From a virus: a stretch of DNA of 62,735 bases. A program made the position numbers and the translations under genes. Position 1 is the first letter of the stretch. Each line of letters opens with the position of its first letter. The notes beneath the pieces were generated by a model. The model had not been told where the DNA came from. It saw only the letters and a program-made list of their open reading frames with translations, and ran no database searches. Below are positions 65 through 62,735 of this stretch, one piece after another. Where the stretch lies: IMG/VR virus record IMGVR_UViG_3300027969_003138, positions 1 to 62,735 of that record; one strand, given 5' to 3'.

Positions 65-142
65 TGGCACCCCCTCAAGGATTCGAACCTCAGAATGTCG
101 GAATCAAAATCCGATGCCTTAGACCAACTTGGCGAAGGGGGT
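65..142 (-). tRNA. tRNA-Gln (anticodon TTG)
   Basis: A full cloverleaf is visible on the minus strand. The acceptor stem is ACCCCCT/AGGGGGT, the anticodon stem is TCGGA/TCCGA, and the 7-nt loop TTTTGAT gives anticodon TTG. The T arm has a normal TTCGAAT loop. The discriminator is G and the 3' CCA is encoded. It lies 5 nt from the next tRNA gene in a regularly spaced array. Confidence 0.93.
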
Positions 143-147
143 AAATT

Positions 148-221
148 TGGTACCCAGTAGAGGTAACGCTCCTCTGATTCACCCTTATCAGGGGTGTGTT
201 ATACTTTTTAACTAACCGGGC
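148..221 (-). tRNA. tRNA-Ile (anticodon GAT) with atypical D and T loops
   Basis: All four stems pair. The acceptor is GCCCGGT/ACTGGGT with discriminator A and encoded CCA, the D stem is GTTA/TAAC, the anticodon stem is CACCC/GGGTG and the T stem is AGAGG/CCTCT. The anticodon loop CTGATAA gives GAT. The anticodon arm is the same as in E. coli tRNA-Ile as I recall it. The D loop (AAAAGTA) lacks GG, and the T loop (AGCGTTA) lacks the TTCRANY consensus, so the usual D-loop/T-loop tertiary contacts cannot form in the standard way. Confidence 0.8.
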
Positions 222-226
222 ATGTT

Positions 227-301
227 TGGTGGATGTAAGTAGATTTGAACTACTGACCTATTCCGTATGAAGGAATTGCACTACCGCTGTGCTATACATC
301 C
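227..301 (-). tRNA. tRNA-Met or tRNA-Ile2 (anticodon CAT)
   Basis: The cloverleaf has acceptor GGATGTA/TACATCC, D stem GCAC/GTGC with GG in the loop, anticodon stem ATTCC/GGAAT with loop TTCATAC, and T loop TTCAAAT. CCA is encoded. A paired first base pair and the absence of three G-C pairs in the anticodon stem argue against an initiator. Sequence alone does not separate elongator Met from a lysidine-modified Ile tRNA. Confidence 0.92.
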
Positions 302-380
302 TGGTACCCCTGATCGGGTTTGAACCGACAACTGACGCTCTCTCTTGAAGAACCGACTTTTCCTATTTGTCTACAGGGGC
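302..380 (-). tRNA. tRNA, isotype unresolved
   Basis: The acceptor GCCCCTG/CAGGGGT, a 3-bp D stem GAC/GTC with GG in the loop, the T arm GTCGG/CCGAT with loop TTCAAAC, and an encoded CCA are all clear. The best anticodon stem is GTTCT/AGAGC. It leaves the loop TCAAGAG, which would read AAG (Leu) but has C instead of U at position 33. The variable region is 7 nt, too short for a standard bacterial tRNA-Leu. Its 3' end abuts the tRNA-Met 5' end with no spacer. Confidence 0.75.
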
Positions 381-386
381 ATTGAT

Positions 387-463
387 TGGGGTGCTTGATG
401 GGATTCGAACCCACGTATATCGGAATCACAATCCGAGGTCTTAACCGCTTGACGACAAGCACC
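387..463 (-). tRNA. tRNA-His (anticodon GTG)
   Basis: The anticodon loop is TTGTGAT within stem TCGGA/TCCGA. Discriminator C faces a G at position -1, the hallmark of tRNA-His. The acceptor is GTGCTTG/CAAGCAC, the T loop is TTCGAAT and the CCA is encoded. Confidence 0.95.
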
Positions 464-469
464 GTGTAT

Positions 470-559
470 TGGTAGAAACGGTGAGATTCGAACTCACGGA
501 CCCTTTCGGATCGACAGTTTTCAAGACTGTTGCCATAAACCTGACTCGACCACGTTTCC
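470..559 (-). tRNA. tRNA-Ser (anticodon TGA)
   Basis: This is a class II tRNA with a long variable arm. The anticodon stem is ACAGT/ACTGT with loop CTTGAAA (anticodon TGA). The acceptor is GGAAACG/CGTTTCT, the T loop is TTCGAAT and the CCA is encoded. Confidence 0.95.
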
Positions 560-565
560 ATATTA

Positions 566-641
566 TGGTGGGACCAGGGCGGTTCGAACGCCCGACCAAC
601 GGATTAAAAGTCCGCTGCTCTACCGACTGAGCTATGGTCCC
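566..641 (-). tRNA. tRNA-Lys (anticodon TTT)
   Basis: A canonical cloverleaf. The acceptor pairs GGGACCA with TGGTCCC, the anticodon loop CTTTTAA gives TTT, the T loop is TTCGAAC and the CCA is encoded. It would decode AAA/AAG, which are common in this AT-rich genome. Confidence 0.95.
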
Positions 642-647
642 GTATAT

Positions 648-724
648 TGGTGCGACCGGAAGGACTTGAACCTCCGACTCCCTATTTCGTAGACAGGTAC
701 TCTAATCCACTGAGTTACGGCCGC
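648..724 (-). tRNA. tRNA-Arg (anticodon ACG)
   Basis: The acceptor is GCGGCCG/CGGTCGC, the anticodon stem is CCTGT/ATAGG with loop CTACGAA (ACG, with A34 expected to become inosine), the T loop is TTCAAGT and the CCA is encoded. This is the promoter-proximal gene of the array. Confidence 0.95.
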
Positions 725-1438: not shown

Positions 1439-2329
1439 TTATTTCACATTTTTGATAGCAGAATCTACATGAGCCTTAAGAGTAGCTGGCCCAAATTTTG
1501 ATGGTTCAATGTGTTCCGTTGTAAAATATTCAACTGTTGAAGTATCTGTTAAATATTTTTGTATTAAATTACCCCAAAAGATATGTACTTCTGTATTAGT
1601 ATTATTTGGCAGCACTATAGCAAAACCATCGTTAGATTCCCAATTTGGATATCTTTTGTATAAATCTGTGGTTTCATTAATTTTTACAGTAGTAGCTATC
1701 AATACTATTTTCTTAGAATCAATTTGAGATTTTACTATATTGAGTGGAACTACTGCAACATCAATATGCCCTCCTAATAAATCATTGAGTAGAGGATTTG
1801 CTCCCTTATAAGGAATGAAGTCCGGCGGTGTTGTTTTATTATGTAAAAATAATTGGTTTAGTGCAATTTTTTGTGCTGGTGCACCAAATGCAAAACTTTT
1901 TGTTATCTTTTTAGCTTTGATTTCAACTTCTAAATCATTAATAGTTTTAATTCCACTATTTGTATGTGTGATTACAGCCATTGTCGGCTTGCTAATCATA
2001 GAGATGTAATCAAATTGGTAATCGGGATATTTGTTTTTGTACGTAGCAATACCTGCTATAGTAACAAATCCTATGGTTGATCCATTATTTTTTGCGGCCG
2101 CGATTTCAGACAAACCAATTAAACTATCTGCACCGGGTTTGTATGTTGGAATAATTACCAATCCACTAGTTTCTTCTATATATTTTTGAAAATGTTTGAA
2201 TGCAATATCTGTTCCGCCCCCCGGTGGAAATGGTATAATCATTTTTACAGAATTTTTATCTGAATTAAATAACTGGGCTGAACATAAAGATGATATTGTA
2301 AGTAAAAATATTGTTATAAATTTTTTCAT
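1439..2329 (-). CDS. Bug/TctC-family periplasmic solute-binding protein
   Basis: A 296-residue protein with a Sec signal peptide: a KK n-region, a hydrophobic FITIFLLTISSL core and a likely type I cleavage after CSA near residue 18. The loop PFPPGGGTD at about 32-40 and the second-lobe signature PYKGANPLLNDLLGGHIDV are the hallmarks of tripartite-tricarboxylate (Bug/TctC) receptors, which bind carboxylates in the periplasm and pass them to a TctAB permease. No permease genes are in the window, so it would need host partners or act as a lone binder. It overlaps the upstream PP-loop gene by 4 nt (ATGA), suggesting coupled translation. Such a receptor is unusual in a phage. Family call firm, ligand unknown. 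Confidence 0.88.
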   Translation of the reverse strand: MKKFITIFLLTISSLCSAQLFNSDKNSVKMIIPFPPGGGTDIAFKHFQKYIEETSGLVIIPTYKPGADSLIGLSEIAAAKNNGSTIGFVTIAGIATYKNKYPDYQFDYISMISKPTMAVITHTNSGIKTINDLEVEIKAKKITKSFAFGAPAQKIALNQLFLHNKTTPPDFIPYKGANPLLNDLLGGHIDVAVVPLNIVKSQIDSKKIVLIATTVKINETTDLYKRYPNWESNDGFAIVLPNNTNTEVHIFWGNLIQKYLTDTSTVEYFTTEHIEPSKFGPATLKAHVDSAIKNVK

Positions 2330-3456
2330 ATGTCGGTTACATAAAAGTATTTTGACGAGGTTACCTCATATACTTGAGGACCCGTGGAAGATTTTTTTGT
2401 TAGAAATCTATCGTCAATCATATTTACCCTAGTAACAACATTGTGAAAATATTTCTCTCTAATAGTAGACAATTCCGGATGTTCATAAAACCAAAAGAAT
2501 TTATCTGTTCTACTAGCACTATTTGGTTTGTCCGCTTGAAATCGATTATCCCAATTACTATATAATAAACTCCTAGACAAATCATTTTGAAACTGGTTAA
2601 CTATGACTTTTTCTTCAGGTGGCCTAGTTGTAATATTCCATAGAAATTTTTGCTTATCAGGATTTGCTTTATAATATAACGCTAATTGATATGCCTGTTC
2701 AAAAGGTAGTATAGGGAAATCAGGCGTCCAATAAAAACACTCAGTATTTTCTGAATCAATGTTTCCACGTCCAGCCTGATCCAAACATACATCAGTAAAA
2801 AACATATAAATCTTTTGTTTATGAGTAAACAATAATGGTTTATCTATGCCATATATATGCGATACTTTTTTACTGTTAAAATACAGATTACTATCAGACA
2901 TTACACTGTTTAGTAAAATACCACCACCCCTTACAAAATTCAATTTTTCAAAAATTTCATCAACATTTAACGTATCAATTGATTCAGTGTAATCTTTAAT
3001 TGTTATTTTAACGTTTGGTTTGTTTTTTGCCATCCATTCAAGTATCGGTTTAATAGCATAATTCCATTCACTCCAGTAGTTTCTTGCTGAGGTATCACTA
3101 CTGTTCGGGGAATAGAACATACCATCCATTAATGTTTTGGGCCACTTTACACAAACCTCATCTAGTTTGATGTCATTATCAACAAAGGTGCGTAGTATGT
3201 TGTGGCTATCTGCGCCACCACTATAATACAATATCAAATAATCATATGTATCCCTGAGTTGTTGCGCTCTATCTCTATACAACTCATTAAGTGAACGTTT
3301 GCCTAACTGAGACCGATCAAAGTTATTCCACACGTTATTGTGATAGTGAAAATTTATTGGAAAGGTAGTTGGGGATGCACTTACTAATGCATCATATTTG
3401 TTCAAATATTTTTGATCATTAACTGTCCAATAGCCATATTTCTCTGTTTGAATCAT
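2326..3456 (-). CDS. PP-loop (asparagine-synthase-like) protein A
   Basis: A 376-residue protein with the PP-loop signature SGGADS at 79-84, after a hydrophobic strand YLILYY. This motif binds ATP in enzymes that adenylate a carbonyl and release pyrophosphate (asparagine synthetase, beta-lactam synthetase, ExsB/QueC, PAPS reductase). There is no N-terminal glutaminase domain, so any amine would have to be free or come from a partner. The C-terminal half is Trp/Tyr/Phe-rich and unrecognised. It lies between a small gene (14 nt upstream) and the Bug receptor (ATGA overlap). It is one of four PP-loop genes within 11 kb. Substrate unknown. Confidence 0.72.
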   Translation of the reverse strand: MIQTEKYGYWTVNDQKYLNKYDALVSASPTTFPINFHYHNNVWNNFDRSQLGKRSLNELYRDRAQQLRDTYDYLILYYSGGADSHNILRTFVDNDIKLDEVCVKWPKTLMDGMFYSPNSSDTSARNYWSEWNYAIKPILEWMAKNKPNVKITIKDYTESIDTLNVDEIFEKLNFVRGGGILLNSVMSDSNLYFNSKKVSHIYGIDKPLLFTHKQKIYMFFTDVCLDQAGRGNIDSENTECFYWTPDFPILPFEQAYQLALYYKANPDKQKFLWNITTRPPEEKVIVNQFQNDLSRSLLYSNWDNRFQADKPNSASRTDKFFWFYEHPELSTIREKYFHNVVTRVNMIDDRFLTKKSSTGPQVYEVTSSKYFYVTDI

Positions 3457-3470
3457 ACCTAATAGGAGGT

Positions 3471-3770
3471 CTATTCAAATATTTTAGGGCCGATGGTAAT
3501 TCCAACTGCTTCGTTGTATGCATTTCTTATATCCCAGTATGGAGTAAGATCAGGATCTACGTCATATTCGTCAAAATCTTCACGACTGGCCCAAACTCCC
3601 TCATAAAACATTTGCAATCCATCTTCGCTAAATGAAACGTTATATGAAATATGCTTACCCGAATCTATATATGTTTGAAGTTTTAATTTAAATTCTGTAG
3701 ATGATAGTATATTACCATGCCATGGTATATCTACTGATGGTCTTGTATATTGTCTTTTAATTTTAATCAT
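3471..3770 (-). CDS. Small hypothetical protein, 99 aa
   Basis: I start it at ATG 3770 rather than at an in-frame TTG at 3791, because a perfect AGGAGGT ribosome-binding site lies 7 nt upstream of that ATG. The protein begins MIKIKRQYTRP and has alternating hydrophobic strands followed by an acidic C-terminal part (DFDEYDVDPD). Size and pattern are compatible with a small alpha/beta dimeric fold, but no motif proves this. It stops with TAG at 3471. A late-promoter motif at 3793-3800, inside the end of the upstream cupin gene, could drive this gene and those after it. Confidence 0.75.
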   Translation of the reverse strand: MIKIKRQYTRPSVDIPWHGNILSSTEFKLKLQTYIDSGKHISYNVSFSEDGLQMFYEGVWASREDFDEYDVDPDLTPYWDIRNAYNEAVGITIGPKIFE

Positions 3771-3787
3771 TAACTTACCTCCTGTTA

Positions 3788-4438
3788 TCAATTATTTATC
3801 AAAGTTCTAGTTTTCATGGGATTGGCTTCATCTTTGGGGCCTGAATCACTGTCTGGATGAAATACCATAACAGATAAAGAGTCATCGGTTGTCTTAAATC
3901 TATGTATGGTGTGTCTAGGTAAATTATATACCTGTCCGGGAATTAAAGGTATTTCTGAATCTTTTAAAGAACATACTCCTTGTCCACTTAATATAAGTAT
4001 GATACGAACACTAGGGTGCGTATGAAAAGTTTGGTCTGTATTTTTTGGAATAAACAAATAGTTAACGCACGGATCACCGTTTCGTGGAGGATCAATTATA
4101 TTACTATTACTACAACCATCAATATAACTTAAATGTCCAGGAGTATTTACATTATTCAATATAGTAGCTTTGTCATCAAGACCATTAAATCCCGTGGCAT
4201 GTATAATAACAATTTTTCCAGTATTATCCATTTTTGATAAGGTAATTTTTTTACGTGTAGTTACTGCAAAACACCCAGAGATCGAAAAGTCGTCAGTATT
4301 ACATTTTGCATGTGTGGCCATAATAAATTTACAATGACTTGTTTCACTAATGGTATCAATGGCGTCTGATTGATTAGTTACCGATAATATAGTCCTATCA
4401 GATATATAAATTGTTTCATTGGTTTTAATTATATTCAT
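3788..4438 (-). CDS. Cupin-domain protein
   Basis: A 216-residue protein. The C-terminal half (about 125-195) is a cupin barrel: a first motif with H139 and H141 (FHTHPSVR) and a second motif with PRHTIHRF around H176-H179, which together can bind a metal. The N-terminal half is divergent and may be a second, degenerate barrel. Cupins act as dioxygenases, isomerases or small-molecule binders, and here one sits inside a run of PP-loop and hydroxylase genes. It overlaps the upstream PP-loop gene by 4 nt (ATGA). No signal peptide, so cytoplasmic. Fold call fairly firm, reaction unknown. Confidence 0.75.
   Translation of the reverse strand: MNIIKTNETIYISDRTILSVTNQSDAIDTISETSHCKFIMATHAKCNTDDFSISGCFAVTTRKKITLSKMDNTGKIVIIHATGFNGLDDKATILNNVNTPGHLSYIDGCSNSNIIDPPRNGDPCVNYLFIPKNTDQTFHTHPSVRIILILSGQGVCSLKDSEIPLIPGQVYNLPRHTIHRFKTTDDSLSVMVFHPDSDSGPKDEANPMKTRTLINN
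3793..3800 (-). promoter_or_regulatory. T4-like late promoter motif
   Basis: GATAAATA on the minus strand, 22 nt upstream of the ATG at 3770, with AGGAGGT in between. It matches the T4 late -10 box TATAAATA in seven of eight bases. Confidence 0.5.
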
Positions 4439-5322
4439 TTTAAATAATCTCGGTGTATCTTAACAATATCTCCTATTCCACTAGACCAATTAGTAATATT
4501 AGTCCCGTAAGAATGCAAATGGTCAAATAGTAATTTCCAATAATATTGATTTTCAAAATTTAAAGTTTTTATGGGGGATAACAAATTTAATCGATCTTTA
4601 ATATTTTGTAAAAAATTAGTCTTAGGATCGTAACGATACTTTCCATTTGATATTAATTCAGTACTATTTAGTATATGATACCATAGATTAAAATCTGTAC
4701 TAAAGAAATTACCCTCACCTTTTTTCTTATAATACTCAAGGCTAAGGTTATATGAAATCTCGCTTAAATGCATAGGTACATATAGATAATTAGGGTCATA
4801 ATAGGTTATTTTTTCATTAAAAAGTTTTGAATACTTTACATCATTGGTTTTTTCAATATCACCTTCACCTATTACAATATAATAATCGTCAGGTACATGT
4901 TTTATTAAATACGGAACTGATGCATATGTTGGAAAACAAATTTTATGTATATTAAAATTATCAATACTTATGTTACTAAGTAGTTCATTGAATTTAATTG
5001 TAATCACATTTAGTTTAGTGTTGTATTTTTCAGCTATTTTTCTTACCAACAATAAATCTAATTCGTTTACATCTAATATATGAAGAAAATAATATTCTGT
5101 GGATATTTTTTGGTTATAAAGAGACCTGGCAATAAGTTCACTATCTATCCCTGACAAAAATAAAGCAACAGTATTGCAGTTATTATTGATAATTGTATTT
5201 TTTAAATTGTTACAAGCTTGATCAATTGCATCAATAAAATCAATTGTGGTTATATCATCAATACCGTCTAACGAGTAACTAAATTCAAAAGAGACTGGAT
5301 TAAAATTATAAATTCTTTTCAT
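4435..5322 (-). CDS. PP-loop-like protein B with degenerate signature
   Basis: A 295-residue protein resembling the neighbouring PP-loop proteins. The strand TVALF leads into LSGIDSE at 56-62, where the family has SGGxDS. Either one glycine is missing or the first Ser and Gly are replaced, so ATP binding may be altered. The following segment ELIARSL matches the helix after the PP-loop in its paralogues. No glutaminase domain is present. It overlaps the upstream PP-loop gene by 17 nt and the downstream cupin by 4 nt. It may be a non-catalytic partner of one of the other PP-loop proteins, in the manner of a heterodimer; that is inference. Confidence 0.65.
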   Translation of the reverse strand: MKRIYNFNPVSFEFSYSLDGIDDITTIDFIDAIDQACNNLKNTIINNNCNTVALFLSGIDSELIARSLYNQKISTEYYFLHILDVNELDLLLVRKIAEKYNTKLNVITIKFNELLSNISIDNFNIHKICFPTYASVPYLIKHVPDDYYIVIGEGDIEKTNDVKYSKLFNEKITYYDPNYLYVPMHLSEISYNLSLEYYKKKGEGNFFSTDFNLWYHILNSTELISNGKYRYDPKTNFLQNIKDRLNLLSPIKTLNFENQYYWKLLFDHLHSYGTNITNWSSGIGDIVKIHRDYLK

Positions 5323-6421
5323 AATTTTTAATTATATTATCTGATTGATACACCGTATTGATATCTAAATTTTTATAAATTTTTAAATCACCACTTAATG
5401 AACCACTTCGTTGTCTTAAATATACAATATTTTTTAAACTTTGTCTTTTAGTTTTTTGCATATAAAAATCAGTTCCAATAAAATTACTTACTAACTTTTT
5501 AGCAGTAAATTTATACGAATCCCAAGACCCGTAATTTTTAGGCTCATCTGAATACATTGACCACAATTGAAATTCATCTGAACTAAAGAAAGGAAAGTAG
5601 TCTTTTTCAATCCAGTCAGTATCAACCTCTGTAGCTATCCTACTAAACAGGAATACTCTATAATAAACATAAATCCATTTCCATGTAAAATTGTACCACC
5701 AAAATACATCCCACATTGTATGATCTGTCCGGGGACACGATTCTAAATTTTTAATAAAAACACTTGTCCAAAAATGCGCCGCATTGGCATTAACTTTTTT
5801 ACCTTCTGTTATAAACTTAAATAACAAATTGTAATTTAATGGGCAAGATAGACTATTGCTGCCGGCAAACATTTCATAACTTTGTTGTATATCGGCGCCA
5901 AATAATTGATCATTTAGCTCACCGGATACATATATCATTTTAGTAATGTCTGTATCATTGTAACTGAAGTCACTGTTTACTACATTAAAGTGAGGACGTA
6001 TAAAAGAATACCACATCTCAGGATTTTCATCAATACTTTGCTTGTTCATAATTATATTAATTCTTTTTTTTGCTTTGTCCACACCTAAAAGTTTAATAAA
6101 AGAACACAATACTACACTAGAATCTATTCCACCACTGTACATTAGGTATATTGGTTTATCTATTTGAATCTGTCTATCTAATATTTGTTGAGTTTTTAAT
6201 AAAGCACATTCTTCATAACTATATGATTGATTATTACTAACAGGTATATTAAATCTGTCAGGCACATATGTATTAATAGGAAATTTAAATACCCGCGACC
6301 TATCGTTTAATCCAATATTTTTATCACCAATAATTTTAAATAATTGTTTCCAGTATTCAGACTCTGAAAATTTATTAGCCTGATCAATAAATTGCCGACT
6401 TTGATATGCTATTAATTCCAT
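5306..6421 (-). CDS. Asparagine-synthase-like PP-loop protein C
   Basis: A 371-residue protein with the cleanest PP-loop of the set: SGGIDSS at 96-102 after strand PIYLMY. A later motif, SGELNDQLFG (about 166-175), corresponds to the SGEGADELFGG element of asparagine synthetase. This supports an AsnB C-domain-type adenylating amide-forming fold without the N-terminal glutaminase domain. Rich in Trp and Tyr in the C-terminal part. It overlaps genes on both sides (10 nt upstream, 17 nt downstream). It probably activates a carboxylate with ATP and joins it to an amine; substrates unknown. Confidence 0.78.
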   Translation of the reverse strand: MELIAYQSRQFIDQANKFSESEYWKQLFKIIGDKNIGLNDRSRVFKFPINTYVPDRFNIPVSNNQSYSYEECALLKTQQILDRQIQIDKPIYLMYSGGIDSSVVLCSFIKLLGVDKAKKRINIIMNKQSIDENPEMWYSFIRPHFNVVNSDFSYNDTDITKMIYVSGELNDQLFGADIQQSYEMFAGSNSLSCPLNYNLLFKFITEGKKVNANAAHFWTSVFIKNLESCPRTDHTMWDVFWWYNFTWKWIYVYYRVFLFSRIATEVDTDWIEKDYFPFFSSDEFQLWSMYSDEPKNYGSWDSYKFTAKKLVSNFIGTDFYMQKTKRQSLKNIVYLRQRSGSLSGDLKIYKNLDINTVYQSDNIIKNYEKNL

Positions 6422-7011
6422 ATACGTAATCTTTCTGCAAATTCATGAATCATCATTTCCAATTTTTCTACATCGTTCTCTAATATTATTTGCTCAGTAT
6501 AACAATCAACAACCGATTGCACCTTAATTAATAAACCTTTGTAACTATTAATTTTAATCTCAATATCTTTTATTGCCTCATGTCTTGGTAATTTCCTATA
6601 CTCCAAGTATTCTGTTAAATATTTTTCTTCATTACCAGCAAGCATAGATTCGAACAAATGCGGAATATACGGATTTATAAAATATGAACAATGCGATATT
6701 GGAGTAGCCACAAGATTATACAAATGTTCTATTACTGATTTTTTTGTAAATGTTAATTCTTTTTTTTGAATGATTGCTGTATTTACTTCAATGTTATCTA
6801 ATACAGTTATTATTCTGTTTTTATAAAGTATACACATATTTTTAATATTGTGGTCGGTAATTGTATCATAAAAGGTACTATGTATGCCTGCCTTAAAAAT
6901 TGTCAATACTTCTACATCTATTATGGCGTTTTTGATCGCAGTGGCAACTTTGGAATCTTCAGTTTGTGATAGGATTAGGCTAGTCTTTATATCTACAATG
7001 ATATGTTTCAT
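6412..7011 (-). CDS. Hypothetical protein, 199 aa
   Basis: No recognised domain. The N-terminal half alternates short hydrophobic strands (KHIIVDIKTSLILSQ; VEVLTIFKAG). The C-terminal third is a charged helical stretch (EKLEMMIHEFAERLRIWN) that may mediate pairing with another protein. No signal peptide or membrane segment. A perfect T4 late consensus TATAAATA (7017-7024) ends 5 nt before its ATG, with no ribosome-binding site between, so it may be translated from a leaderless transcript. It overlaps the next gene by 10 nt, so it belongs to the same unit as the PP-loop genes. Confidence 0.7.
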   Translation of the reverse strand: MKHIIVDIKTSLILSQTEDSKVATAIKNAIIDVEVLTIFKAGIHSTFYDTITDHNIKNMCILYKNRIITVLDNIEVNTAIIQKKELTFTKKSVIEHLYNLVATPISHCSYFINPYIPHLFESMLAGNEEKYLTEYLEYRKLPRHEAIKDIEIKINSYKGLLIKVQSVVDCYTEQIILENDVEKLEMMIHEFAERLRIWN

Positions 7012-7016
7012 AAATC

Positions 7017-7024
7017 TATTTATA
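7017..7024 (-). promoter_or_regulatory. T4 late promoter, perfect consensus
   Basis: TATAAATA on the minus strand, 5 nt from the ATG at 7011. With T4 spacing, transcription would begin at or next to the start codon. It lies in the only clear gap (7012-7056) inside the PP-loop gene run. Confidence 0.65.
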
Positions 7025-7056
7025 TTAAAAATTTTAAGGTAGATAAAAATATAAAA

Positions 7057-7644
7057 TTAAATTAAATTATTAAAACTTTTTTTAGATAGAGATTTGGCAA
7101 TTTCACTGAAGGAAGGGAAACCGTCAAATTTTGTTTGTATTATTATTCTAGGTTTATCTCCAATACACTTAAAACTATGATAGGTATCTACATCTAACGC
7201 ATACACGTCTCCAATTTCATTATGTAATTCTTCTATAAATGGAACATTTTCATATGCATATATGTCGGTATTTCTACTCTTACCCAAATTGGTTGAGTAT
7301 TTGAGGGTTGATATACTATTAATATAATCTTCATCATACCAGCGTACCCAATCATCAAAATTACATGATATGGCAATATTTAATGCACTTTGGCATTTAA
7401 AGCCATCTTTATGAATTCTATACCCATGGCCAGGATCTGAATAAAACGCTTTTTGTATACGCCCGATTTCTGAACATTGTATTTTCAATTCTGTATTAAT
7501 AAACAATTTTAAAAATTCATTGTTGAGATACTCATCAAAATGGATCCATTGGTACGGTATATTTGGTTGTTTTCTTTTTAATATTTCAATTAAAAAGAAG
7601 TCAATAGTCTCCTTAGGCAATTTACCCAATTTTAGATATTTCAT
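7057..7644 (-). CDS. 2OG-Fe(II) dioxygenase-like hydroxylase 1
   Basis: A 195-residue protein with a double-stranded beta-helix hydroxylase layout. A HxD motif is at H78-K-D80, a distal His at H156 (DTYHSFKC), and an Arg ten residues later (R166, in PRIIIQTKF) is placed to bind the 2-oxoglutarate carboxylate. Such enzymes use Fe(II), oxygen and 2-oxoglutarate to hydroxylate side chains or small molecules. It starts inside the end of the radical SAM gene (23-nt overlap), so the two are translationally linked. Substrate unknown. Confidence 0.7.
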   Translation of the reverse strand: MKYLKLGKLPKETIDFFLIEILKRKQPNIPYQWIHFDEYLNNEFLKLFINTELKIQCSEIGRIQKAFYSDPGHGYRIHKDGFKCQSALNIAISCNFDDWVRWYDEDYINSISTLKYSTNLGKSRNTDIYAYENVPFIEELHNEIGDVYALDVDTYHSFKCIGDKPRIIIQTKFDGFPSFSEIAKSLSKKSFNNLI

Positions 7645-8947
7645 TTTTTTCTATCATTTCTACTATTTTAGGAAATACAGATTTCCAATCTGTGTTTCTA
7701 GTGCCATCAAGATAGTTCATAAATTTTAAAAATTCTTTGATGCTATCAGGTTTATGAAATTCATCACCCGTATGATTTTTTAAATATGTTATAATCATAT
7801 CTGCTTTTACAGAGTTGTGTTTATTCTCAATATAATACTTTATTAAATCTTGCTTTGATTGATCTGATAATGACGATACAGACAACCGTTCCGGGCCTTC
7901 TAAAAATCTTAGATGAAAGTCTACACCAATTGACTTGCACCATTCTTCACTTTCAATAATACTATAGCAAGTTGGAATTTGAAAGCATGTACTGACTGAC
8001 ATTAATTTTATTTTGTTGTTAGAATCAATTTGATATTGTTTTAATTTGTTAATATTAGTTTGAAACTTTTCCCACTTGCCACCAAATCGTATCAACTCAT
8101 ATTGATCTCCTATTGCATCCATACTAGCACGAATATGCACTTTCTTAAAATGACTCCAACGTTGTGCTATCTTATCATTAATAGCACTAGCATTTGTATC
8201 ATATTCTAACCATATATTTTTAGCATACCCCGATTCAATTAATTTATCAAGCATAATATCGTGTGCAGGAGTGACCATTGGTTCCCCACCTGTAATATAG
8301 ATATGCTTTAAATGCGGCATCATTTCTTCAAATTTGGGCCACCATCTAGGATCTTCAAACCATTGTAATTCCGGTGGCTCTATCCATTTATTTGTTGTTA
8401 AATTTTTGGTAACAGTTATCTTAGTTCCGTGCCCAAATGAGTTAGTATTAAAATAATCAAAATGTTCCTCGTACCATAAATTACTAAACACCGGACTACA
8501 CATTACGCATTTTTGATTACATAAATTACCAAACCGAATATCTAACGAATTGGGCATCCAATCTACATTGCCCTGCTCATCTATTTTATTTTTTGAATAA
8601 TTAGATTCAGAAACAACATCATTATTTTCAATATTCATCAAATAAAGTCTACGACTTTTATTTTTATGTTCCCTGTCATGATTTGTGATTATTTCTCTAT
8701 TTTCACAACAATCGCAATGAGGGCTCCATTTATCAGGATTATTAGTATTAAATAATCTCACCTGACGATGTTTATCGCTATTCATAATATCGTTGATACT
8801 ATGGGTTAGTATATGCATAATATTGCCATCTTTATCTCTGGCTCTCTGCATATCTAAACTTTTATCTGAATTTGTACCAATTGAACATAATCTGATATAA
8901 CCATCAGGTAAAATATGCATTCCGTTCCAAACTGTTTTACAAAACAT
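7622..8947 (-). CDS. Radical SAM protein with auxiliary-cluster cysteines
   Basis: A 441-residue protein. The radical SAM core has C143xxxC147xxC150 (NLCNQKCVMC) and the SAM-binding GGEP at 220-223. N-terminal to it lies a cysteine-bearing segment: FCKTVWNGMHILPDG, then RLCS with C21, and CDCC around 78-81. This resembles the auxiliary [4Fe-4S] half-sites of twitch/SPASM-type enzymes, placed before the core rather than after it. The enzyme would cleave SAM reductively to start radical chemistry; targets in this class are often peptides or carrier-bound substrates. The start is supported by AGGG 7 nt upstream and a late-promoter motif before that. The 5' neighbour ends 12 nt away. Confidence 0.85.
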   Translation of the reverse strand: MFCKTVWNGMHILPDGYIRLCSIGTNSDKSLDMQRARDKDGNIMHILTHSINDIMNSDKHRQVRLFNTNNPDKWSPHCDCCENREIITNHDREHKNKSRRLYLMNIENNDVVSESNYSKNKIDEQGNVDWMPNSLDIRFGNLCNQKCVMCSPVFSNLWYEEHFDYFNTNSFGHGTKITVTKNLTTNKWIEPPELQWFEDPRWWPKFEEMMPHLKHIYITGGEPMVTPAHDIMLDKLIESGYAKNIWLEYDTNASAINDKIAQRWSHFKKVHIRASMDAIGDQYELIRFGGKWEKFQTNINKLKQYQIDSNNKIKLMSVSTCFQIPTCYSIIESEEWCKSIGVDFHLRFLEGPERLSVSSLSDQSKQDLIKYYIENKHNSVKADMIITYLKNHTGDEFHKPDSIKEFLKFMNYLDGTRNTDWKSVFPKIVEMIEKNEISKIG

Positions 8948-10175: not shown

Positions 10176-10771
10176 ACTTTTAAATTATACGAAATTATAA
10201 TTCTTTTGGTATCAGCTTTGATAAAATCTACCCAATGAGCATGATGAGTATTTAATATTACAACATCTCTGTCATTCATTTGATATTGATAAGAAGGAAT
10301 ATCTTTGGTTCTTTTCTTATCTTTTGATTCACTAACATTAGTTATTGCGTTTGATGAGTTTTTTAAACCTATATTAAGTGCATATTCTCTTAAATCCACA
10401 TGTGGTGTTACTGATCTTTGACATTCTATTAATCTTACAAATCTGGGTTCAAATGATGCGGTATTGATAAAATGTTCAACAAGTACAGAATTTATGTTTT
10501 CATGTTTAATAGTGTTTTTTAATATAGTTAAATTGTCGCAAATATTAATACATTCGTCAGTAAAGAATTTCCAAAAAGTATGACTTGTATTTACTCCGCT
10601 AGGGTATATTTGAAAGCAAGGATAAGTTATATTCTTGACTGGATAATGCTCACCATCCGGACCGACTGTTTCATCAACAATGTAATTGTTCATTTTACTT
10701 AAAACTGATTCAACATCCCAATCGACTTTAAAATCTTTTCCTAAATGACAAAATAAATCATTTTTATTCAT
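10172..10771 (-). CDS. 2OG-Fe(II) dioxygenase-like hydroxylase 4
   Basis: A 199-residue protein. HxD is at H124-V-D126 (VTPHVDLREY), followed by a strand ALNIGLKNS, a distal histidine cluster NTHHAHWV (H176-H179) and R190 in KRIIISYNL. This order matches 2-oxoglutarate hydroxylases. Its start overlaps the desaturase stop by 4 nt (ATGA), so it is the last gene of the operon that begins near 15240. A hydroxylase coupled to a desaturase and an acyl carrier protein suggests an acyl or amino-acyl substrate; inference only. Confidence 0.7.
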   Translation of the reverse strand: MNKNDLFCHLGKDFKVDWDVESVLSKMNNYIVDETVGPDGEHYPVKNITYPCFQIYPSGVNTSHTFWKFFTDECINICDNLTILKNTIKHENINSVLVEHFINTASFEPRFVRLIECQRSVTPHVDLREYALNIGLKNSSNAITNVSESKDKKRTKDIPSYQYQMNDRDVVILNTHHAHWVDFIKADTKRIIISYNLKV

Positions 10772-20454: not shown

Positions 20455-21555
20455 TTAAATATTTGGTAAGTCATCATAATCCAGTGACTCTGACATAATT
20501 CCTATTACATAGTTTGTGCTTTCCGTTTCTTGAAGTGCGGACTGCTTCTTACTCGTATCACTATGTTTATTAAACCATGGAATAGGTGTGCTTTTTGGGG
20601 CAGGACTATTATATTTAATACCAATCTCTTTCAATGCTCCTACAGCAGTATAATCAACAAAGTCTTTTAATACAGTTGAATTCAATCCAATAACTGGACC
20701 AAACTTAAATAAGTAATCAGCCCACTCTTTTTCTTCACGTATAACATCCATATAAAGCTGATAGACTTCACCTTCACATTCTGATTTAACTTGTGCAAAA
20801 CGGCTGTCTTCTTTAACTACTTGATTAATAAGGTAAGCAGTCCACCCTTTATGGAGAAGTTCATCTTGGAGAATTAAACTGATAATATTGCCATTACCAA
20901 TAAAGATTTTGTTCTCAACCATTGCTAACGATGTAGCAAATGATACCATAAATCGGAATGCTTCCAATGCGTAACTAGCATGTAGTGCCAGATAAATTGC
21001 TTTAATATGTTCTTTTTCATTAACATCTTCACCCAATTCTTTACGACAATTAACTTTGTGTAATGCATCATAGTAGTTACCTACACTACTTGCCATATCT
21101 ACAATCTCTTTTGTATCGTGGATAGTATTGAATACATCTTTAGGCACATTATAAATGTTACGAATGATGTGGCTGTAACTACGACTGTGAATGTTGGTTT
21201 CAAAGAATGTCCAGTTGTAAATCAATGCTTCTAATTCAGGTAACGATACTACTGGAGTGAATACTTGACTTGGTGCTCGTCCTTGTAAACTGTCTAATGC
21301 TGTTTGTCTTAGTAAGTTACTAGTAAAGATATGTTTTACTGTATCGCTTGAGTCTTTGAAATCATTGGCATCTTTAGTTAATGAAATTTCTTCTGGGACC
21401 CAGAAGAAGCCACGCGCCGTTGTTTCAAAGTCGGCAATCTTTTTATACTTAACCTCTTCAAATCTTTGAATGGTTACGGGACCTTCCGGGTCCAAAAACA
21501 TTTTTCTGTTCAAATAATCTGTCTTAGTGTTTAAGTTGTATTGTTGTTTACTCAT
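20455..21555 (-). CDS. nrdB: Ribonucleotide reductase class Ia, beta subunit
   Basis: A 366-residue diiron-tyrosyl radical subunit. Visible ligands are the Asp in TALDSLQGR, Glu and His in FETNIHSRSY, the Glu in ALEAFRF, and DELLH. The radical Tyr is the final Y of HSRSY. The first iron helix reads E-T-N-I-H, one residue longer than the E-x-x-H spacing of E. coli R2. The C-terminal tail (SLDYDDLPNI) is the part that docks on NrdA. Its ATG overlaps the nrdA stop by 4 nt. It supplies the radical that starts ribonucleotide reduction for phage DNA synthesis. Confidence 0.95.
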   Translation of the reverse strand: MSKQQYNLNTKTDYLNRKMFLDPEGPVTIQRFEEVKYKKIADFETTARGFFWVPEEISLTKDANDFKDSSDTVKHIFTSNLLRQTALDSLQGRAPSQVFTPVVSLPELEALIYNWTFFETNIHSRSYSHIIRNIYNVPKDVFNTIHDTKEIVDMASSVGNYYDALHKVNCRKELGEDVNEKEHIKAIYLALHASYALEAFRFMVSFATSLAMVENKIFIGNGNIISLILQDELLHKGWTAYLINQVVKEDSRFAQVKSECEGEVYQLYMDVIREEKEWADYLFKFGPVIGLNSTVLKDFVDYTAVGALKEIGIKYNSPAPKSTPIPWFNKHSDTSKKQSALQETESTNYVIGIMSESLDYDDLPNI

Positions 21556-23870
21556 AATTTACATGCTTCGCAATCTTCTTCATCCATATCATTAAAGCCA
21601 CTTGGCAAATCTAATACAGTTTCATCTTGGCTCTTACTACCTGCTTTATTAATCAAGCTATAGTAGAATGTCTTTAATCCCCACATATGTGCCTGCATCA
21701 AGTTCTTAGCAATCAATGTTGTTGGAACTTTACGCTCAGGGAAATGTGCTGGGTTATAGAAAGTATTAGTGCTTATGCTTTGGTCAACGTAGGCTGCAAT
21801 CACTGCCGCTGTCTTTAAGTAACCATCACAATCTTTTTGATCCCACATCAATTGATATTTGTTTTTCAATCTATGGTATTCGGGTACAACTTGTACAAAA
21901 CTACCTGCTTTACTTTCTTTAACTGATATCAAACTCATTGGCATTTCAATACCATTTGTACTGTTGATAACTACTGAACTAGATTCTACAGGAGCTACAG
22001 CCATTTGTGTAGCATTACGGACACCATGACTACGCATCATAGCACGTAGTCCTTCCCAGTTTAATTCGGGAGTAAAGTTAGCTAATTCGTTAACACCTTT
22101 AGCACGTAACTCCCAGGGGAAAATGCCTTGACCATAACGTGTCTTGTCACTATGTTCACATCTTCCACGTTCTTGTGCTAGTTCTACACTTGCTTCAGTT
22201 AAGTAGAAGGATAAGTGTTCCATCCACGTCTTGACTTCAGCCAGGGCGTCTTTTTCTCCGTACTTGAAACTTCGTTTGGCGTGCCAGTAGGCAAGATTAG
22301 TGATTCCAATTCCGAGAGGTCTGATTTCATCGTTTGATAGTTTAGACTGAATGGATAGAAAGTCTTGATAGTCAAGAATGTTATTGAGGCTACGATGCAA
22401 TATGCGACAAGCACGGCGCATGTCTTCTGGATTACGGAACGCACCCCAATTGATACTGCCCAATGTGCAAAGAGCGATACGACCATCGCTGTCATCCAGA
22501 CGTTTAAAGGATTTAGTAGGTAAAAGAATTTCACAACATAAGTTACTCTGGTAAATTGTATGATATTCAGGATCAAATGGTCCTTGATTCATAACATTGT
22601 CAACGAACACTAGGTAGATACGACCTGTATCTGTTCGTTCTTTTAATATGCCAGACTTGAATACTTCTTCAGCCGACATTGTTTTCTTACGTAAGTCTTT
22701 ACGTTTTTCATATTTTACGTAGAGTTCTTCAAACAGGGCGGTGTTTCTGTAGAACGCTTCGTACAAATCAGGCACTTCATTTGGGTCGAAAAAGGTGATC
22801 TGCTCTTTATTTTTGAAACGTCTCCAGAAGAAAGCGGACAAGACAACCCCGTAGTCCATGAAACGAACACGAGTTTCGTCAGTACCTTGATTGTTTTTAA
22901 GTACAATAAGATCATCAAACTGATGATGCCAAATTGGATAGAATACTGTAGCACTAGCATTACGGATACCTCCCTGTGAGCAACTTCTTAAATCACCGAA
23001 CCATTTCTTTAAGAACGGAATCATGCCGGTGTGCATAATCTCGCCACCACGAATAGGACTACCTAACGGGCGTAATCTGCCTATCTCTAATCCAATGCCA
23101 GCACGTTTACTAGCATACTTTGCCATCATTTCACCAGAAGCGAAAATACTATCCAAGTCATCATCACTGCGAATAAGTACGCACGAACTGAATTGTTTAG
23201 TAGGGGTACCGAGACCAGCAAGGACAGGGGTAGCAAGAGTAAATAATCCATCACTTGCGGCATTGTAGTATTCCTTTATATAACGCATTCTAGCGTTGTT
23301 GGGTTCTTCACTATGAAATACAGTAGCTGCCGCTATCATATAGCGAACTTGTGGTGTTTCATACGTTTGTTTAGTAGAACGATTCTTTACTAAATATTTT
23401 TCAATCAGTTGTTCAATGGCGGCATAACTGTATTGTTCGTCCTTAGAATGGTCAAGCATGTCATCCATCTTGTTCCAATCTTCTTCACTATACCATTCTA
23501 GTAGTTCTGGTGTATATAATCCTGTAGCAACATTAGTTACTACGATATCGTACAGACGGGGAGGCTCATAGTTGCCATAAACATCTTTACGTAGCATTGA
23601 TAGACGTTGTTTACCTGCTACATATTGATAGTTTGTATGTCCTACATCTGGATTATTTTCTACGTCAATTAAGTCTACAACCGCACGTAATGTAATTTCA
23701 TCTATTTGATGTGTAGTGATACCATCATAGAAGTGAAGTTGTGATTTTATTTCTACCATAGAAGGGCTAACATCAGCTATCCCTACACATATTTTTGCCA
23801 CTTGCGCTTGCCATTTTTCTAACATTAATGGCTCTTTTGTCCCATTTCTCTTAGTGACGTATATTTTCAT
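21552..23870 (-). CDS. nrdA: Ribonucleotide reductase class Ia, alpha subunit
   Basis: A 772-residue catalytic subunit. The N-terminal ATP-cone begins YVTKRNGTKEPL. FSSCVLI carries the first redox Cys, and NLCCEILLP carries the active-site Cys and Glu. The C-terminal tail ends EEDCEACKL, whose CxxC pair relays electrons from glutaredoxin. It reduces ribonucleoside diphosphates to deoxy forms in the cytoplasm. AAGGTAAA precedes the start. The order nrdA, nrdB, glutaredoxin makes a complete, translationally linked set. Length is normal for the family. Confidence 0.97.
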   Translation of the reverse strand: MKIYVTKRNGTKEPLMLEKWQAQVAKICVGIADVSPSMVEIKSQLHFYDGITTHQIDEITLRAVVDLIDVENNPDVGHTNYQYVAGKQRLSMLRKDVYGNYEPPRLYDIVVTNVATGLYTPELLEWYSEEDWNKMDDMLDHSKDEQYSYAAIEQLIEKYLVKNRSTKQTYETPQVRYMIAAATVFHSEEPNNARMRYIKEYYNAASDGLFTLATPVLAGLGTPTKQFSSCVLIRSDDDLDSIFASGEMMAKYASKRAGIGLEIGRLRPLGSPIRGGEIMHTGMIPFLKKWFGDLRSCSQGGIRNASATVFYPIWHHQFDDLIVLKNNQGTDETRVRFMDYGVVLSAFFWRRFKNKEQITFFDPNEVPDLYEAFYRNTALFEELYVKYEKRKDLRKKTMSAEEVFKSGILKERTDTGRIYLVFVDNVMNQGPFDPEYHTIYQSNLCCEILLPTKSFKRLDDSDGRIALCTLGSINWGAFRNPEDMRRACRILHRSLNNILDYQDFLSIQSKLSNDEIRPLGIGITNLAYWHAKRSFKYGEKDALAEVKTWMEHLSFYLTEASVELAQERGRCEHSDKTRYGQGIFPWELRAKGVNELANFTPELNWEGLRAMMRSHGVRNATQMAVAPVESSSVVINSTNGIEMPMSLISVKESKAGSFVQVVPEYHRLKNKYQLMWDQKDCDGYLKTAAVIAAYVDQSISTNTFYNPAHFPERKVPTTLIAKNLMQAHMWGLKTFYYSLINKAGSKSQDETVLDLPSGFNDMDEEDCEACKL

Positions 23871-61561: not shown

Positions 61562-62735
61562 TCACTGAAAGGTGAGATTTTGTACGGCTATTTCTCCCAC
61601 GTAATCGGCAGCATTACCGAAAGAACTTGCGGTGTTGGTTAATTCAATGTACCCGTAACGTGTCATAAATGATACGACTGGTTCGAATGTTGATGGATCT
61701 AGAACAACACCACTGCTCATCAATGGAATGTATGGGCAATAGAATGCGGCTGCATCAGTCTCTGAAGAACCTTTATAACCAACCAATACTGGAATAGTAT
61801 CTGCGGCATAAGAGTCAACGAACACACGCATAGCGCCGTTCAATGTACCAACGAACTTAGTGTTAGTTGGAGCTTCGAATGTACCTTCTGTAGTACGAGC
61901 AAAAGCACTAGTAGTTGCAGACTGTAGAACAGTTAGTGCAGCACTAGAAACAACAGCCCAGTTACCAGCACCACGACGTGTGCGTTGTGCGATCAAGTTA
62001 GCAACACGATTGATAAGAACAGCTAGTGCAGCGTGTTCGTCACCAACGTAAGTAGCTGTACCAGATACAGTAGCTTGGTTGTATGTATACTCTGTACTTG
62101 CTAGAGTACGCAATGACAAGAGAATCTCTTGGTCGATCTCAGCAGTAATTTCTTGTGCTAGAGCGGCCATGATTTCTGCCTCAACGTCAATACCATGTTG
62201 GCTTTGAGCGTCTTGAGCAGCTTCGAATGTCCAGCGAGCTTGTAACTTACGTGATTTAGCTTCAACAGCTTGACGTAGAATTTGAACGCTGATTTGCTTA
62301 CCACCGTTGCCTTCAAGGGCAGCAGTATCGTTAGCAGTATAATAGCTAGATGTTGTTGCATCACTCTTGCTACGTGAGTAAGCTTGAGCAATCAAGAATG
62401 GACTCAATGCCTCTTGACCAGCTGTAACGCTAGTTTGAGCGGCACTATTGTCTGTTAATGACTGAGCATAACGTACACGTAGTGTGTGAATTTGACCAAC
62501 TGGTCCTGTCATTGGCTGAACGCCTACCAATTCGTTAGCGATAACGGTTGGCATGACACGACGAATAACTGGAAGAATCACACGGTTTAGTGTAGCGATA
62601 TTACCAGATGTTGTAGTACCGGCTGAAGATTCAGCTAGTAACTGTTTTTTGGTGTTTTCTAAAATAACACCCATTGTTGAACGGCGAGTTCCTTTTAAGC
62701 CTTCTAACAGAGCTTCTTTGGTCTCGTCCCAACGG
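61562..62735 (-). CDS. Major capsid protein, gp23 family (5' end outside window)
   Basis: The frame stays open past the internal ATG at 62674 to the window edge; upstream residues read RWDETKEALLEGLKGTRRST, typical of the gp23 N-terminal region, so the true start is beyond 62735. Gp23-family blocks are clear: MPTVIANELVGVQPMTGPVG, the AQDAQSQHGIDVEAE region, and YCPYIPLMSSGVVLDP followed by FEPVVSFMTRYGY. It builds the hexamers of the T4-type head. Two L-x-E sites (LLEG near the edge and LAES at 62640-62630) could be gp21 protease cuts. Codon use is less AT-biased than elsewhere, as is common for highly expressed capsid genes. Confidence 0.96.
   Translation of the reverse strand, partial: RWDETKEALLEGLKGTRRSTMGVILENTKKQLLAESSAGTTTSGNIATLNRVILPVIRRVMPTVIANELVGVQPMTGPVGQIHTLRVRYAQSLTDNSAAQTSVTAGQEALSPFLIAQAYSRSKSDATTSSYYTANDTAALEGNGGKQISVQILRQAVEAKSRKLQARWTFEAAQDAQSQHGIDVEAEIMAALAQEITAEIDQEILLSLRTLASTEYTYNQATVSGTATYVGDEHAALAVLINRVANLIAQRTRRGAGNWAVVSSAALTVLQSATTSAFARTTEGTFEAPTNTKFVGTLNGAMRVFVDSYAADTIPVLVGYKGSSETDAAAFYCPYIPLMSSGVVLDPSTFEPVVSFMTRYGYIELTNTASSFGNAADYVGEIAVQNLTFQ

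Follow-up and report, generated by a model that had tools for sequence, protein, structure and literature searches.

G18G19 in the D loop and TΨC in the T loop are taught as near-universal marks of tRNA, and U54 and U55 are the sites of m5U and pseudouridine. A tRNA-Ile gene in the viral record IMGVR_UViG_3300027969_003138 (the whole stretch of 62,735 nucleotides is referred to as the window) has paired stems and lacks both marks. Is the gene decaying, or is the elbow of its tRNA formed by other contacts? The analysis indicates that it very likely encodes a working elongator tRNA-Ile that reads AUU and AUC, has a compensated non-TΨC elbow, and belongs to a recurrent phage and bacterial class.

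A tRNA-Ile(GAU) gene with altered D and T loops

ARAGORN identified positions 148–221 on the minus strand as tRNA-Ile(gat) with exact boundaries, and the bases were re-read. Covariance-model scoring, the check suggested by a first-pass annotation of this DNA, gave 48.5 bits against Rfam RF00005 (E = 2.6e-7), above the gathering cut-off of 29. The structure read from the bases bears out the annotation that all four stems pair. The acceptor stem GCCCGGT/ACTGGGT is fully paired with G-U at 1-72 and 5-68, and the D stem (GTTA/TAAC), anticodon stem (CACCC/GGGTG), and T stem (AGAGG/CCTCT) are all paired. The anticodon GAT (GAU; 187–189, minus strand) lies in the loop CTGATAA with U33, and the 3' end ACCA is encoded. 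A73 and the GAU anticodon identify the gene as tRNA-Ile(GAU).

The D loop is AAAAGTA (202–208, minus strand). Numbering its seven bases 14, 15, 16, 18, 19, 20, and 21, which is our own assignment, places A18 at 205 and G19 at 204. The T loop is AGCGTTA (164–170, minus strand), with A54 at 170, G55 at 169, C56 at 168, and T58 at 166. Re-reading confirmed that the D loop is without GG and the T loop without TTCRANY. To call the loops replaced is too strong. With its seven bases the D loop is of an ordinary kind in which A has taken the place of G18, and C56 and G57 are retained in the T loop. The changes relative to GG/TTCRANY are G18A, U54A, U55G, A58U, and Y60A; G19, C56, and G57 are unchanged. 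U54 and U55 are absent, so the tRNA has neither m5U54 nor pseudouridine 55. The gene resembles a canonical bacterial tRNA-Ile(GAU) in its cloverleaf, GAU anticodon, A73, CCA, G19, C56, U8, A14, and A21. It differs in having A18 and A54/G55/U58 instead of G18 and U54/U55/A58, and in having no site for m5U54 or pseudouridine 55. The four stems and the CCA of RF00005 are present, whereas G18G19 and TTCRANY are not, and the gene is a variant and not a standard member of that family. The re-read bases A18 with G55 and A54 with U58 define it as a member of a compensated-elbow class.

ARAGORN and loop reading place the gene in a cluster of eight tRNAs (Arg, Lys, Ser, His, Leu, Met, Ile, and Gln; 65–724, minus strand) in which only tRNA-Ile has the swapped elbow. 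The D and T loops of the other seven contain GG and TTC, respectively. The Rfam score of tRNA-Ile ranks second lowest among the eight. The lowest score in the cluster, 37.2 bits, belongs to the tRNA-Leu at 302–380, for which ARAGORN gives the anticodon AAG. A tRNA-Leu with this anticodon is unusual in bacteria.

Recurrence of the loops in phages and bacteria

Two sequence patterns were used to look for relatives. The first contained the anticodon loop and the T loop only, excluded the D loop, and matched at least 120 stretches of viral contigs. Among the viral matches listed plus the window itself, the anticodon and T stems are paired in 43 of 121 loci. One of the 43 is the window and one (L086) is an evident chance match. 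In the other rows the D loop, which lay outside the pattern, reads AAAAGTA or AATAGTA or differs slightly from these.

The second pattern was free of the anticodon and matched at least 117 bacterial and at least 120 viral stretches. It held ACCA and the GG/CC closing pairs, and these features are therefore selected. Our own script then built cloverleaves around every AGCGTTA in the 340 listed loci and returned 182, of which 169 are distinct. The script accepted only cloverleaves with at least 4 pairs in the T stem, 4 in the anticodon stem, and 5 in the acceptor, and the pairing of the stems in its output is partly selected as a result. Among the matches listed, a class cloverleaf is present in 50 of 117 bacterial loci, 41 of 120 viral loci from the first pattern, and 50 of 102 new viral loci from the second; the remaining loci are chance matches or were rejected by the script filter. 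The anticodons vary, with the loop CTGATAA in 47 of the 169 and TTT, GAC, TGC, and other anticodons also found. Positions 18-19 of the 125 distinct AGCGTTA cloverleaves with a 7-base D loop are AG in 122, UG in 2, and GG in 1. The D loop was in no search pattern. Of the distinct cloverleaves with AGCGTTA and seven bases in the D loop, at least 54, the window included, are Ile(GAU). These counts show that the loops of the window gene are more than a chance occurrence.

The cultured Pseudomonas phage 16Q (OR001909.1) has loops of the window type in a gene annotated as tRNA-Ile. ARAGORN does not call this gene, and it calls only 64 of the 169 distinct class cloverleaves from our script, which means that such tRNAs are lost by a gene finder. 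Of 147 Pelagibacter-order genomes 2 contain the exact AGCGTTA pattern, among them G001, as do 3 of 115 from the Chthoniobacter phylum, among them G007. The double swap is therefore sporadic in hosts, as counted with an exact pattern that misses TGCRANY arrays and AGCGTAA forms. These data place the window tRNA-Ile in a recurrent class in phages and some bacteria.

Two further observations were made. C33 replaces U33 in 25 of the 169 class cloverleaves (e.g., L123, L133, L134, L151, L155, and L169, with the loops CCGATAA and CCTGCAA). The Ala, Cys, and Phe tRNAs of phage 16Q (L341) have T at 56, and the D loops of Ala and Cys have GA and no GG.

Stem covariation among Ile(GAU) relatives

An alignment (A1) was assembled from 55 Ile(GAU) rows, 54 from the script (7-base D loop, 4-base variable loop) plus phage 16Q, whose row mistakenly starts and stops one base late. 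The stem cells are paired in 97.1% of cases, a percentage partly selected by the script, compared to 62.7% after shuffling and 38–44% after sliding. Cells changed on both sides number 388 compared to 114 after shuffling, and neither this value nor the pairing was equalled in 500 shuffles. Two-sided change is seen in 20 of the 21 stem pairs. For a lesser measure, the number of further pair types, 9 of 500 shuffles did as well as the alignment. The variety of pair types is unaffected by the selection of the script. Thus, the loops of these relatives are nearly fixed while their stems vary and covary, and the window tRNA-Ile shows neither broken stems nor relaxed constraint. The earlier suggestion that the gene is decaying is not supported by this pattern.

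Decay had also been said to predict relatives with normal loops and a clear mutation path to this copy. One tRNA-Ile (L286) looks intermediate. Its D loop is AAAGGTA and its T loop ATCGTTA, meaning that 54 and 58 are changed with G18 and U55 still in place, and its acceptor, D, and T stems resemble those of L060 and the window gene. Its changes are also paired, and it does not make the case for decay. An order from canonical loops through ATCGTTA/GG to AGCGTTA/AG is plausible from these sequences. By stem similarity the nearest genes to the window gene are the swapped L023 and L055, and the canonical Ile tRNAs L665 and L342 are about as near as the next swapped ones.

Joint changes at the elbow positions

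The pairing of D and T loops was next counted in 2093 distinct tRNAs that ARAGORN called in the collected loci. Positions 18 and 19 are strict only in 7-base D loops; otherwise GG or AG was accepted anywhere in the loop. TTCRANY occurs with GG in 1454 of 1467 tRNAs. AGCGTTA has an AG D loop in 70 of 73 cases, as most of the common TGCRANY T loops do. A less biased sample of 543 distinct tRNAs came from viral arrays chosen by a canonical T arm with the bait tRNAs dropped. This count also demanded A at both loop ends, and its totals differ from those of the mutual-information sets below. It contains 482 TTC..A loops (478 with GG), 18 ATC..T (all GG), 12 TTT..A (none GG), 11 TCC..A (all GG), 5 TGC..A (all AG), 5 of odd length, and 10 of rarer types. 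Among 225 bacterial TGC..A tRNAs, 19 have a GG D loop; these and the 11 TCC..A tRNAs are uncompensated.

Mutual information was calculated over 45 position pairs in three sets, again with bait tRNAs dropped. The order in the viral background (n = 128) is 54-58, 58-60, 54-60, 59-60, 19-56, and 18-55, and the sixth-ranked 18-55 (0.116) is no higher than in its best shuffle. Among tRNAs of the viral AGCGTTA loci that have another T loop (n = 379), the order is 54-58, 18-55, 54-60, 58-60, and 19-56. In the bacterial set without AGCGTTA (n = 98) the order is 18-55, 54-60, and 54-58, and 19-56 lies outside the best nine. Joint changes therefore concentrate on the textbook contacts 18-55 and 54-58, and on 19-56 in the viral sets, besides pairs internal to the T loop. 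These rankings show that elbow contacts are recoverable from sequence data alone by covariation.

The base combinations were tabulated for the pooled 605 tRNAs. Positions 18/55 are G/U in 505, A/G in 84, U/U in 6, G/C in 4, C/G in 4, U/G in 1, G/G in 1, and A/U in none. In 7-base D loops of this pool, A18 is accompanied by G55 in 84 of 84 cases and G55 by A18 in 84 of 90 (Fisher's test, 2e-96; relatedness is ignored, as in the other counts). Positions 54/58 are U/A in 553, A/U in 40, and twelve others. Positions 19/56 are G/C in 581, A/U in 12, U/C in 7, and five others, so only 12 of the 24 changed combinations are A/U. Most elbow changes are matched and some are not, with the poorest matching at 19/56. 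The joint change of 18/55 and 54/58 in the class, in the 2093 tRNAs, and in the further sets upholds the early view that this elbow is formed in a non-standard way. The Levitt pair 15-48 is A/C or A/A in 43 of 53 tRNAs of the AGC..T class.

Viral tRNAs fall into canonical (2307), A54 (157), A18/G55 (150), U56 (50), and other (102) types; baits are included, and these numbers are no estimate of frequency. Each of the 20 amino-acid isotypes includes viral tRNAs with an alternative elbow, with Ser represented by one case only.

A18/G55 in the only tRNA-Phe found in one Pelagibacter-order genome

Host genes were examined in the order of G001, a genome whose record L129 is named Pelagibacteraceae. 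A swapped tRNA-Phe query matched 49 of 97 genomes. The best 30 loci comprise 26 A18/G55 and 4 canonical genes, a split biased toward swapped genes by the query. A tRNA-His lies in the fetched stretch at several tRNA-Phe loci of both elbow states, and in L553 the tRNA-His is swapped and the tRNA-Phe canonical.

All 33 tRNAs found in one genome of this order (G037) were read, and they cover 20 amino acids. Its sole tRNA-Phe found has the loops AGTAGTA/TGCGATT (A18/G55). Val(gac), with AATAGTA/AGCGTAA, is double-swapped, and the genome also has a canonical Val(tac). Thr(ggt), with TAGTGTTA/TTAGATT, is read as U19 with A56 and likewise has a canonical counterpart, Thr(tgt). All of the remaining 30 are canonical. 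Provided no copy was missed, tRNA-Phe is single in this genome, and a tRNA with A18/G55 must therefore decode. Because the double-swapped Val has a canonical Val(UAC) beside it, the sole-copy argument covers A18/G55 only and not the double swap. Natural phage and bacterial tRNAs, including this tRNA-Phe, dispense with U55.

The 19-56 pair itself is changed in Thr(ggt) of G037 (L586) and in Arg tRNAs of L134, L155, L169, L208, and L225. Their T loops are TTAGATT, TGGGAGT, TGGAACT, and TGAGAGT, and there is no G at the expected position 19. Some of these changes are complementary (U19/A56, C19/G56) and others are not, with the numbering uncertain in longer D loops.

A compensated elbow as the proposed structure

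A review of the elbow (PMC4810234) terms pseudouridine 55 universally conserved. It describes residue 18 as stacked between 57 and 58 and paired to 55 by one hydrogen bond, the T loop as closed by a U-A reverse-Hoogsteen pair, and 19-56 as an exposed pair that offers a recognition surface. In the window tRNA-Ile, A18 with G55 would stand in for G18 with pseudouridine 55, and A54 with U58 would stand in for U54 with A58. The outer, exposed G19:C56 pair would be retained while the inner contacts are rewritten pairwise. The fold is thus probably kept by different base contacts. A rearranged T loop instead of a simple swapped pair is possible because base 60 also changes (Y to A) together with A54. 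The simplest account would be an elongator tRNA with normal docking. The three-dimensional contacts, charging, production, and translational use of the window tRNA-Ile are inferred. Natural double mutants of this compensated kind provide test material for the purpose of the elbow and its modifications.

Swapped tRNA arrays, some of them beside RNA-repair genes

In bacterial contigs, swapped tRNAs form arrays. Among the matches listed, 38 bacterial loci have at least three G55 tRNAs, and G55 is present in 294 of their 355 ARAGORN tRNAs. Ten of the eleven loci printed in full are arrays of 7–21 tRNAs that are mostly A18/G55 with some canonical. Of these ten, all but L208 and L225 bear the name Verrucomicrobia or that of one of its classes, orders, or genera. 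L169 is labelled Akkermansia muciniphila, a name made doubtful by the 7.9 Mb given for its genome, G006. The Chthoniobacter genome G007 has 61 tRNAs, and the 31 distinct tRNAs of its best 30 loci are all canonical, a choice by score that favors canonical genes.

Neighbor genes were collected as the ORFs of 51 loci (these 38 plus 13 longer regions from 11 genomes), clustered by blastp, and counted once per genome. A cluster in 12 genomes is HNH by Pfam in 4 of 4 members tested, and a cluster in 10 genomes is RtcB in 6 of 6. A cluster in 5 genomes is TROVE in the one member tested, with a sixth TROVE gene in L142 and a distant one in L520, and a cluster in 4 genomes is RlaP in the one member tested. 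L510 also has an HD-kinase gene, and L518 a gene for a Band_7 protein. The TROVE, RtcB, HD-kinase, and RlaP genes beside swapped arrays are located at 2254–4119 of L142, 673–3426 of L208, 13538–15154 of L519, 2615–5189 of L510, and 14901–17479 of L521. L208 has three such genes in succession, for TROVE, RtcB, and a protein of the HNH cluster. We did not detect HNH, RtcB, TROVE, RlaP, HD-kinase, or Band_7 in the stretches examined around the other arrays. Between the tRNAs of L134 and L155, the proteins tested proved to be a TPR protein and one for cytochrome assembly.

The viral loci were also searched for RtcB or Ro60 genes linked to swapped tRNAs. The RtcB query had no match in the 222 viral AGCGTTA loci or the 115 viral TGC loci and matched 3 of 117 viral background loci, and the TROVE query matched 1 of 222, 1 of 115, and 0 of 117, respectively. 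Only 91 of the 222 viral AGCGTTA loci contain a class cloverleaf. The link was not found in these viral loci, a weak result because the loci are short.

Possible reasons for keeping the altered elbow

Neutral compensatory drift is ranked slightly above escape from an elbow- or modification-dependent attack on tRNA. Drift, in which the elbow of phages and small genomes would wander among equivalent pairings without itself bringing an advantage, is our tentative first choice among the explanations for its persistence. Independence from the host's tRNA modification is a further candidate reason. It is consistent with the coexistence of A54, A18/G55, and U56 solutions across all 20 viral isotypes combined, with three unusual elbows in one genome (G037), and with the intermediate-looking L286. 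The bacterial arrays fit it less well, being mostly swapped compared to the canonical best-scoring tRNAs of Chthoniobacter. One-sided 18/55 intermediates are also nearly absent, with one G18/G55 and no A18/U55 among the 605 tRNAs.

A second explanation, adaptive evasion, is possible but doubtful. An altered elbow would be a poor substrate for host tRNases or other defense factors that recognize the elbow, its modifications, or the T loop, and translation would survive destruction of the host tRNAs. Two reports describe phage tRNAs that replace or escape the targets of defense nucleases, in one case by changes in the anticodon loop (PMC10264068; PMC11555353). The swapped arrays of bacterial contigs, many of them named Verrucomicrobia, would fit evasion, and some of them adjoin RtcB, TROVE/Ro60, RlaP, HD-kinase, and HNH genes. 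However, no nuclease that requires U54, U55, or G18 was identified here, and Cas12a3 touches the T arm via the backbone (PMC12851939). Only one of the eight window tRNAs is swapped. Among the window ORFs, there is no phmmer match at E ≤ 1 to one RtcB and one TROVE query, in a record that starts 64 bases from the last tRNA and so lacks one flank. The RtcB and TROVE counts in the viral loci give no support either. If it operates, evasion would be a candidate route for phages to escape tRNA-directed immunity.

A broader version joins phages and bacteria. The swapped tRNAs may form a re-keyed second tRNA set shared by phages and RNA-repair islands, whose pairwise-rewritten elbow would dock and decode unseen by destroying or modifying enzymes that read U54, U55, or G18. 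The window tRNA-Ile would be one key of this set. We regard this idea as rather unlikely.

A charged tRNA with a role outside elongation, for example as a non-ribosomal aminoacyl donor or a decoy, is improbable. The staphylococcal tRNA-Gly for cell-wall synthesis has lost G18, U54, and U55. The losses in the window tRNA-Ile resemble that case, and the C33 of some class cloverleaves points the same way. On the other side, the window tRNA retains U33 and an anticodon that matches AUU and AUC, which make up 689 of 15316 codons in 19 window ORFs, and the sole tRNA-Phe of G037 has A18/G55. Least probable is a decaying pseudo-tRNA, a reading that could draw on the low rank of the Rfam score and the missing GG and TTCRANY but is opposed by the 55 aligned relatives, the encoded ACCA, and the identical loops in a cultured phage.

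Relation to known tRNAs

Suppressor tRNAs from selections with randomized D and T loops show that alternative elbow pairings can function in E. coli. They are laboratory selections and not a natural class, and are perhaps the nearest precedent to the compensated elbow. Already known are phage tRNAs that resist or replace attacked tRNAs, A54 in initiators, and tRNA arrays. The phage tRNAs that counter defense (van den Berg 2023, PMC10264068; Azam 2024, PMC11555353) are similar in their altered sequence or supply. They differ in that the former reports changes in the anticodon loop, and the words T-loop, D-loop, elbow, and T-arm are absent from the main texts of both as far as these were available. 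Eukaryotic initiator tRNA also has A54 (PMC7912444), which pairs there with A58. Here A54 is mostly accompanied by U58, and in the class by G55 and A18 as well.

The tRNA array units and stress-induced operons of Mycobacterium and Anabaena resemble the bacterial arrays as additional tRNA sets. The Anabaena trn operon and rtcB are under the common repressor TrcR (PMC10272220). In the texts searched on these systems the words T-loop and D-loop are absent, whereas the bacterial arrays described here are mostly swapped. RtcB and TROVE, families found beside some swapped arrays, are also RNA-repair genes of jumbo phages, and the accessible text on these does not mention an elbow change (PMC7824862). 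No description of a compensated-elbow tRNA class was found in the open-license PMC literature, which omits most subscription papers. One occurrence of AGCGUUA with tRNA in the literature is a flexizyme and not such a tRNA.

Other genes of the window

Three ORFs in the window have matches in Pfam and are probable phage-carried metabolic genes. The ORF at 1439–2329 matches TctC, the receptor of tripartite tricarboxylate transporters (E = 2.8e-14), the ORF at 7622–8947 matches radical SAM/SPASM (4.5e-8), and the ORF at 10768–11562 matches a fatty acid desaturase (7e-12). The region 1439–8947 has no match to any named phage. The small and large subunits of ribonucleotide reductase and the major head protein are encoded within 20455–23870 and 61562–62674 of the window.
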